Below, one piece after another: positions 5,350 to 6,760 of a stretch of 64,000 bases of DNA; position 1 is the stretch's first letter; the number at the start of each line of letters is the position of its first letter. The notes below the pieces were generated by a model. That model had not been told where the DNA came from. It saw nothing but the letters and a program-made list of their open reading frames with translations, and made no database searches. The DNA is from an uncultured Bacilli bacterium (GTDB lineage: Bacteria; Bacillota_I; Bacilli_A; RF39; UBA660), in NCBI GenBank assembly GCA_944359725.1, contig CALVSY010000002.1, positions 1-64,000 on the forward strand. Direction: 5' to 3'. The translations under genes were made by a program, and so were the position numbers.

Positions 5350-5487
5350 TAAAAAGAGCCCTTAAGGTATAGGGGTGAACAAAAGTCCACGGTGCCACCC
5401 TATTTCACTTTTAGTGCTCTTTATTTCAATTATTTAATTGTCTATAGTTTTATTTATATTGTAAGCTGTCACTTTCTTACTAAAACT
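5350..5487 (-). promoter_or_regulatory. T-box riboswitch leader of the hisS-aspS operon
   Basis: The minus strand contains the T-box core GGGUGGCACCGUGG (about 5387-5400) followed by the 3' half of a terminator, GGGCUCUUUUU, that can pair with AAAGAGC upstream; AUAGGGUG and CACCCCUAU extend this stem. The Stem I region is very short: AGUUUUA (5481-5487) pairs with UAAAACU (5446-5452), enclosing a GUAAG/CUUAC hairpin with loop AAAGUGACA. The discriminator-pairing base in UGGC is C, which fits a tRNA with G73, and GAC in the apical loop is an Asp codon. No His codon is found in this element. Control is expected to be transcriptional antitermination by uncharged tRNA. Confidence 0.85.
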
Positions 5488-5493
5488 AAATAT

Positions 5494-5522
5494 ATTTTAT
5501 TATATTTTTTATAATTAGTCAA
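5494..5522 (-). promoter_or_regulatory. Promoter of the hisS operon
   Basis: Minus-strand TTGACT (5517-5522), 17-bp spacer, TAAAAT (5494-5499); the start site falls at the first base of Stem I of the T-box leader near 5487. Confidence 0.7.
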
Positions 5523-5545: not shown

Positions 5546-6760
5546 CTATATGTTATATTTACCATTTTTAAATATCAATACTTTTCCTTTGTTAGTTTCT
5601 GCTTCTATACTTGTTTTATTAGTACCAAAAACTATGTCAACATGGTTTTTAGAAGGATTTATCCCATTTTTTAATAATTCTTCTTCATTCATAAGGCTTC
5701 CGTTTAAAACGCATCCTATCATACCGGAACCTATTCCGACATGGCATCCTGCGTTTTCATCTAGCGTAGTTTGATTGTACACCAAATTAGTTTTAGCAAC
5801 CGGAGAGTCTTTTTCTACGATTGCAACTTCTCCTAGATATGACATATACTTATTTGACTCAAATAAGCCGTCTAATAATTCTTTTCCTTCTTTAGCATCA
5901 TAATTAATTATTTTACCATCTTTAAATTGTAAGAAAAAATCATCAACCATTTTCCCATTAATAGATAAAGGTCTTGAATTACGTATTATACCATTAGTAC
6001 TCCACATGTTTGGATTAGTAAAATTCTCGTAACTAGGAATGTTTGGAATAAAGTTATCTCCAAGTTTATTTACGTTTGACCAAAAAGTATTGTTTGTTAA
6101 TTCAACCTTAAAATCAGTACCTAATTCAGATGTATAATGGAGGCGTTTTATTTCTAAGTCATTTAACTTTTCTAACGTTATCAAGCTATTTTTTAAAAAG
6201 ATATCCCAGTTTTTTATCACGTTATCATCTATCATACAAGCATCGCAAATTTTTAAAAATAGTTTTTCATAAGCGTTTTTATCAGTTGGAAATAATTGTT
6301 TAGCCCAAACTTCATTTGGTACTGGCGCAAAACACCATGGTATGTCAAACGCTAATTGTCTTTTCTTATAATAAGCCCTAGTTAATTTATCTACGTTTGC
6401 CGCTTTTGCTAAGCCCTTACTATCTACATCATTCATTAAGCATGGAACAAAGGTTCTTAAAACTATAAAACTAGCATTTTTATGCGCGTAATAATCCCAT
6501 ATACTTTTATTAAAAAAGGGATGTTTTTCTATGTCCTTAATATTAATTTTCTTAAGTATATCATGCATTTCATTTATTTGTTCATTATATAAATACACGT
6601 CTTTTATTCCCATTTTCTTAGCCTTTAAAGCAACTTCATTAGCAAAATCAGCCGTATAATCATTAAAGCTTATAAATAAAGAGTTAGATTTATTAAAATT
6701 TACGCCTCTTTTTAATAAAAGTTCTATGTATTTTTCCTTTAAATGATTAATGTTTGCCAT
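5546..6760 (-). CDS. M29-family (thermophilic-type) metallo-aminopeptidase
   Basis: 404 residues, the standard length of AmpS/PepS enzymes. C-terminal metal-binding region is present: LGEVAIV, LDENAGCHVGIG and NHVDIVFG, with the Glu and His ligands of the M29 family. These cytosolic enzymes remove N-terminal residues from peptides. AAGGAG lies seven bases before the ATG. It is monocistronic, convergent in order but not overlapping with hisS control sequences, and preceded by a terminator at 6811-6834. Confidence 0.85.
   Translation of the reverse strand: MANINHLKEKYIELLLKRGVNFNKSNSLFISFNDYTADFANEVALKAKKMGIKDVYLYNEQINEMHDILKKINIKDIEKHPFFNKSIWDYYAHKNASFIVLRTFVPCLMNDVDSKGLAKAANVDKLTRAYYKKRQLAFDIPWCFAPVPNEVWAKQLFPTDKNAYEKLFLKICDACMIDDNVIKNWDIFLKNSLITLEKLNDLEIKRLHYTSELGTDFKVELTNNTFWSNVNKLGDNFIPNIPSYENFTNPNMWSTNGIIRNSRPLSINGKMVDDFFLQFKDGKIINYDAKEGKELLDGLFESNKYMSYLGEVAIVEKDSPVAKTNLVYNQTTLDENAGCHVGIGSGMIGCVLNGSLMNEEELLKNGINPSKNHVDIVFGTNKTSIEAETNKGKVLIFKNGKYNI

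Follow-up and report, generated by a model that had tools for sequence, protein, structure and literature searches.

Four classes of T-box have been published, and all of them carry a distal Stem I elbow-binding motif, Stem II, or both (PMC10482949). Class I has a long Stem I with the elbow-binding motif together with Stem II. Class II, to which Bacillus subtilis glyQS belongs, is transcriptional, reads Gly with a full-length Stem I that bears the motif, and has a single-stranded linker in place of Stem II (PMC10482949). Class III (Nocardia farcinica and Mycobacterium ileS) has a short Stem I without the motif and an apical specifier in a loop of 5–6 nt, requires Stem II, and acts mostly on translation (PMC10482949). 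The elbow-binding motif is held to be essential in transcriptional T-boxes, whose published terminators are built with the 3′ strands of antiterminator helices A1 and A2 (PMC7583486). In current models, a T-box can hold its tRNA only through the elbow contact, Stem II or the two together, and the transcriptional T-boxes need the elbow contact for speed. With respect to gene context, the closest described systems are the hisS-aspS T-boxes of Bacilli and Lactobacilli, which present GACAC in a usual specifier loop on a long Stem I; control of hisS-aspS by Asp has already been proposed for such Firmicutes, with tRNA-Asp as the ligand (PMC5313534 citing Gutierrez-Preciado 2009).

The window analyzed here is a 64,000-nucleotide stretch of DNA from an uncultured Bacilli bacterium, for which Candidatus Aphodocola excrementigallinarum is the nearest organism with a name (also uncultured Bacilli; HisS 94% identical). 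The minus strand of the window holds, at 5522-5350, a transcriptional T-box that is complete and very short and is flanked by an M29 peptidase gene (5546-6760) and hisS. The leader consists of a promoter, Stem I with an apical GAC, a bare linker, Stem III, an antiterminator with UGGC, and an intrinsic terminator, which is followed by the ribosome-binding site and hisS. The genes hisS, orf165 and aspS are separated by near-zero gaps. The hisS–aspS linkage is kept across the whole genus; orf165 is found in only some members, and its product had no match in NCBIfam or Pfam. The broad criterion for a T-box, a leader upstream of tRNA-synthetase genes, is met by hisS and aspS. The aspS product exceeds the cut-offs of both NF003483 (456 bits) and TIGR00458 (384.7 bits).

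Table 1. Coordinates of the T-box leader and of the genes that follow it.
Feature	Coordinates	Strand	Sequence, basis or remark
Promoter	5494..5522	(-)	-35 TTGACT 5522-5517, 17-nt spacer, -10 TAAAAT 5499-5494; 10/12 matches
Stem I, 44 nt	5445..5488	(-)	compensatory changes; fold predicted unprompted
Stem I lower helix	5488-5482/5451-5445	(-)	UAGUUUU/AAAACUA
Stem I upper helix	5480-5476/5465-5461	(-)	GUAAG/CUUAC; inferred from comparison
Stem I 3′ bulge	5460-5452	(-)	AAUAUAAAU
Apical loop, 10 nt	5466..5475	(-)	AAAGUGACAG; includes GUGACAG 5472-5466
Specifier GAC (Asp)	5468..5470	(-)	UGAC invariant in 33/33 ultrashort homologues
A/U-rich linker, 22 nt	5423..5444	(-)	replaces Stem II and IIA/B pseudoknot; sequence
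Purine string, Stem III and AA	5404..5421	(-)	AAGAG 5421-5417, CACU..AGUG 5416-5406, AA 5405-5404
Antiterminator	5369..5403	(-)	AUAGGG-UGGCACC-GUGGAC-UUUU-GUUCAC-CCCUAU; covarying
Helix A1	5403-5398/5374-5369	(-)	
T-box bulge, between A1 and A2	5397-5391	(-)	UGGCACC; variable base C
Helix A2	5390-5385/5380-5375	(-)	
Terminator	5351..5422	(-)	AAAGAGC 5422-5416 with GCUCUUU 5359-5353; U-tract 5355-5351; leader minimum-energy fold, permutation test across genera
hisS, histidyl-tRNA synthetase, 440 aa	4009..5331	(-)	TIGR00442 492.9 bits
orf165, 165 aa	3509..4006	(-)	function unknown; between hisS and aspS
aspS, 433 aa	2211..3512	(-)	archaeal-type 'aspartate--tRNA(Asn) ligase' form; overlaps orf165

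The promoter is sigma-70-like and is placed in the same way in other members of the genus. Because its -10 box ends only about 24 nt before the GAC specifier, a longer Stem I concealed upstream is excluded, and the specifier is inferred to sit approximately 17 nt downstream of where the RNA is expected to start. A promoter-like hexamer pair ends 20–45 nt upstream of UGAC (median 24 nt) in 31 of the 32 ultrashort homologues. Stem I is built from two helices separated by a 3′ bulge and displays GAC in its apical loop. Neither CAC nor CAU occurs in Stem I, and CAC in the leader is confined to Stem III and the UGGCACC sequence. Two other possible specifiers were rejected: the Asn codon AAU in the 3′ bulge, since the bulge varies among homologues, and a second GAC just past Stem I (5442-5440), which is missing in two leaders (L030 and L035). 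The minimum-energy fold of the lone sequence has another short hairpin in place of the upper helix of Stem I, and this helix is inferred from comparative sequence only.

A matching leader was found in all 16 genomes of the genus that have hisS. It lies directly before hisS in 13 of them and before an amidotransferase-like gene preceding hisS, co-directional with it, in the other three (L024, L028 and L029). The ultrashort leader also occurs before hisS or aspS in other genera; the 117 genomes sampled from the taxonomic order all belong to this one family. RNAalifold, run without a supplied structure on 12 homologues from the genus, recovered both Stem I helices, Stem III, A1 and A2. When 33 homologues, taken from other genera as well as the window genus, were aligned, 96.5% of the cells pair and 191 double-change cells were observed, compared with 47.6 ± 7.5 after shuffling. 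Covariation extends to every one of the 12 base pairs that make up the two helices of Stem I across the family, and the lower helix shows compensatory changes within the genus as well. The sequences had been aligned by fitting them to a model with this structure, but RNAalifold, applied to the alignment, again yielded the two Stem I helices along with A1 and A2. In the RNAalifold folds of both 12 and 33 homologues, the stretch separating Stem I from Stem III showed no conserved pairing. The Rfam T-box model RF00230 scored 34.1 bits (E = 5.8e-6), below its gathering score of 93 bits, because most of Stem I is missing; Stem III, the antiterminator and the T-box sequence do align. By all sequence tests, the element is a T-box, although tRNA binding itself is inferred.

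An initial annotation of this locus had described an unusually short T-box before hisS that lacks a His codon and has GAC in the apical loop of a roughly 42-nt Stem I, in an operon whose third gene is aspS. All of these sequence statements were confirmed, with Stem I now measured at 44 nt, the absence of CAC and CAU holding for Stem I, and aspS specified as the archaeal-type form. Of the checks it had suggested, the covariance-model scan stayed below the gathering score as given above, and the alignment of hisS leaders from relatives upheld the GAC specifier and the short Stem I. The observation that it said would refute it, a longer Stem I with CAC or CAU, has no room downstream of the promoter. 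Its likeness to the ultrashort T-boxes of Actinobacteria held for Stem I only and fails elsewhere, as those need Stem II and act on translation, whereas the window T-box has a terminator and no Stem II.

The purine string, Stem III and the two following adenines fit the 5′-RRRxG-stem III-AA motif (PMC7583486). The 3′ stem after the antiterminator ends in GCUCUUUUU. In the minimum-energy fold of the window leader, AAAGAGC pairs with GCUCUUU, so that the terminator consumes the purine string together with the 5′ arm of Stem III and encloses the antiterminator. In other genera, the 3′ arm of the terminator tracks the Stem III region of its own leader (−15.9 versus −11.9 ± 0.74 kcal/mol for permuted pairs, 0/5000), and the same test found no tracking of the A1/A2 3′ strand. 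The permutation test cannot discriminate within the genus, where the terminator arms are too similar. A canonical terminator that uses the A1/A2 3′ strand was rejected; the folds from A2 onward are weaker, and the 3′ arms do not track that strand. Several other T-boxes of the same genome use the A1/A2 3′ strands for their terminators, and inspection of the leaders suggests that the long T-boxes of the family share the Stem III-capturing form. As the 3′ arm tracks Stem III, the OFF state is probably a theft of the purine string, which would otherwise dock on the tRNA-bound antiterminator. Sequence and comparative evidence show the parts, fold, promoter, terminator and specificity of the leader.

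Judged by sequence and comparison, the window T-box, which lacks the elbow-binding motif, Stem II and the IIA/B pseudoknot, appears to fit none of the four published classes (PMC10482949). It is not class I or II because it has no long Stem I; its Stem I is only 44 nt, class I additionally has Stem II, and class II is specific for Gly rather than Asp. It is not class III or IV because it has no Stem II and has a terminator. Class III is similar in its short Stem I without the elbow-binding motif, its apical specifier and its discriminator. However, the window type has neither Stem II nor IIA/B, has loops of 7–10 nt, reads Asp, and comes from Bacilli. With glyQS it shares transcriptional control and a single-stranded linker, but not the Stem I or the amino acid. 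The hisS-aspS T-boxes of Bacilli and Lactobacilli have the same operon and the same proposed tRNA; the window type has lost the distal arm and carries its specifier apically. In the papers searched, a set without two key subscription papers, no transcriptional T-box was reported that combines an ultrashort Stem I with the absence of Stem II. What is new is likely to be the architecture, which may be the smallest T-box design described, and not the control of hisS-aspS by Asp. Measured from Stem I through the U-tract, the element would be a compact sensor of tRNA, about 140 nt long, and standard T-box searches score this type well under threshold.

The genome's own tRNA-Asp ends in G73-CCA, its tRNA-His in C73-CCA, and its tRNA-Asn carries G73. 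The GAC specifier agrees with the bulge, as G73 of tRNA-Asp pairs with the C of UGGC. Moreover, GUGACAG in the apical loop is the exact complement of the anticodon loop of tRNA-Asp (CUGUCAC). Among 33 tRNA genes read from the genome, that of tRNA-Asp alone matches the apical loop by complementarity across all 7 nt of its anticodon loop, and the next best match is 5 nt. In the ultrashort homologues, the base after the invariant UGAC is A (27) or G (6), and a G precedes the invariant U in 29 of the 33. The long hisS T-boxes elsewhere in the family read GAC, GAU or AAC, and no His-reading T-box was seen before hisS among the long leaders of this family. On these grounds of sequence and comparison, tRNA-Asp is very likely the ligand, with binding inferred. 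The initial annotation had argued that the C of UGGN fits G73 of tRNA-Asp and not C73 of bacterial tRNA-His, which held with the genome's own tRNAs, and its conclusion that tRNA-Asp rather than tRNA-His is read is supported. Its further proposal that Asp starvation would also control hisS remains a supported reading, but the idea had already been published.

In sister genera, the base of Stem I in the long Asp T-boxes takes the form CUUCUAGUAAGAAGAGUA...GAAAGACACUUACAAUAAAUAGAAG (L058; similar in L063). From its sequence, the Stem I of the window genus looks like this long base minus everything between AAGU and GACA. On the HisS tree, the ultrashort genus forms one clade (SH-aLRT 99) beside the long-Asp leaders. 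The ultrashort and long states require three changes in all, from which we infer that ultrashort forms arose about three times. Intermediates in other genera retain IIA/B (e.g., L105, L106 and L116), which the window genus and certain aspS leaders (L107, L111 and L114) have both lost. Two further ultrashort Asp leaders, L249 and L256 (the latter before hisS), occur in another family of the class.

A second ultrashort group reads Gly and is present in 30 genomes of the family (L132, L133, L134 and L146-L175), mostly before the GlyRS gene (glyS). The copy in the window genome lies outside the window (contig C2:75812-75953), after recO and before an unidentified gene. These T-boxes have a Stem I of about 30 nt, a loop of U-GGA-A or U-GGC-A, and Stem III immediately after a short linker, with no Stem II and a core of about 100 nt. 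The bulge is UGGA, and tRNA-Gly has U73.

The likely overall explanation is that a terminating T-box senses uncharged tRNA-Asp and controls hisS-orf165-aspS; there are no binding, read-through or expression data. The nascent leader would display GAC atop the 44-nt hairpin, where the anticodon of tRNA-Asp would pair, and the GCCA 3′ end of the tRNA would pair with UGGC of the T-box bulge. When the tRNA is uncharged, Stem III and the purine string would dock on the antiterminator and RNA polymerase would continue. With charged tRNA, or with none, the 5′ arm of Stem III would instead join the purine string in pairing with the downstream GCUCUUU to form the terminator. The tRNA binding, aminoacyl sensing, switching and compensating pairs are all inferred from sequence alone. 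The affinity remains unexplained because published work deems the elbow-binding motif essential in transcriptional T-boxes. The longer complementarity between the apical loop and the anticodon loop may offset the missing elbow part, Stem II and IIA/B, a hypothesis that we hold with more doubt than belief. A conserved transcriptional T-box with neither the elbow contact nor Stem II makes the requirements of current models testable, as it would bind either by codon and 3′ end alone or by a longer loop–loop helix. In a bolder reading, this is a further class of T-box, transcriptional, with an ultrashort Stem I and without elbow contact or Stem II, in which up to seven loop–loop pairs (for tRNA-Asp) replace those contacts, the terminator steals the purine string, and the plan serves at least two amino acids (Asp and Gly) in uncultured Bacilli. 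We offer this reading only tentatively, as the balance lies against it.

The alternative that survives best remains within the T-box explanation and is, in our judgment, as plausible as not. It regards the invariant U before GAC as left over from the AGUA strand of the ancestral specifier loop and not as an additional pairing partner of A37. In the long-Stem-I relatives L058 and L063, the 5′ side of the loop reads AAGAGUA, and AGU/GACA would therefore result from deletion of the intervening part. In addition, T-boxes that have been studied use the purine following the specifier for stacking, without a pair to U33 (PMC7583486). On the other hand, U precedes the specifier in all 30 of the ultrashort Gly T-boxes although the position is free, and the long Asp T-boxes mostly carry A there.

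A second rival holds that the T-box is decaying and no longer senses tRNA, leaving a plain attenuator or a constitutive leader. The loss of distal Stem I, Stem II and IIA/B, and the need for the elbow contact in published transcriptional T-boxes (PMC7583486), speak for it. We consider it unlikely, given the conservation in 16 of 16 genomes with compensatory changes, the invariant loop, UGGC and discriminator, the retained promoter and terminator, and the preservation of the same loop through approximately three separate shortenings on the HisS tree. A third possibility is that tRNA-Asn is the ligand. It also has G73, the aspS product passes TIGR00458 and NF003483 and is of a form annotated for tRNA-Asn too, no AsnRS was found above the family cut-off in the draft genome, and AAC is used by long hisS T-boxes in sister genera. 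This is very improbable, because the apical loop has no Asn codon, GAC is invariant, and a separate T-box with an AAC specifier already heads the genome's own aspS-dapB-gatAB cluster. Sensing of tRNA-His, suggested by hisS being the first gene and by the CAC carried by some Firmicutes hisS T-boxes (PMC5313534), is all but ruled out by the absence of a His codon from Stem I, by C73 of the genome's tRNA-His, which does not pair with UGGC, and by the long hisS T-boxes of the family, which retain GAC where the formerly overlapping CAC has been lost (GACAU in L040-L044 and L057) or carry GAUAC (L062).

Some further observations were made on the wider set of leaders and on the genome. AAC (Asn) replaces GAC in the long hisS T-boxes of several genera (L124, L128, L129, L130, L178, L182, L187, L191 and others), and specificity shifts repeatedly along the HisS tree. 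Work on a tRNA-Asn T-box is reported to exist for C. acetobutylicum. In the long hisS T-boxes L057, L062, L063 and L040-L044, the 3′ arm of the terminator (GCCAUCUUUUU, GGUACCUUUUU) is complementary to the T-box sequence AAGGUGGC. L045 is a degraded hisS T-box that retains the GUGGCACC core, with a barely recognizable Stem I. In the window genome, contig C7:54082-61500 (L101, L011) carries tRNA-Asn, the AAC T-box, an M29-like peptidase gene, a bacterial-type aspS, dapB, gatA and gatB. The genome thus seems to hold two AspRS, under Asp- and Asn-type T-boxes. Within the window, a 6S RNA was also identified at 88-263 on the minus strand (73.8 bits).
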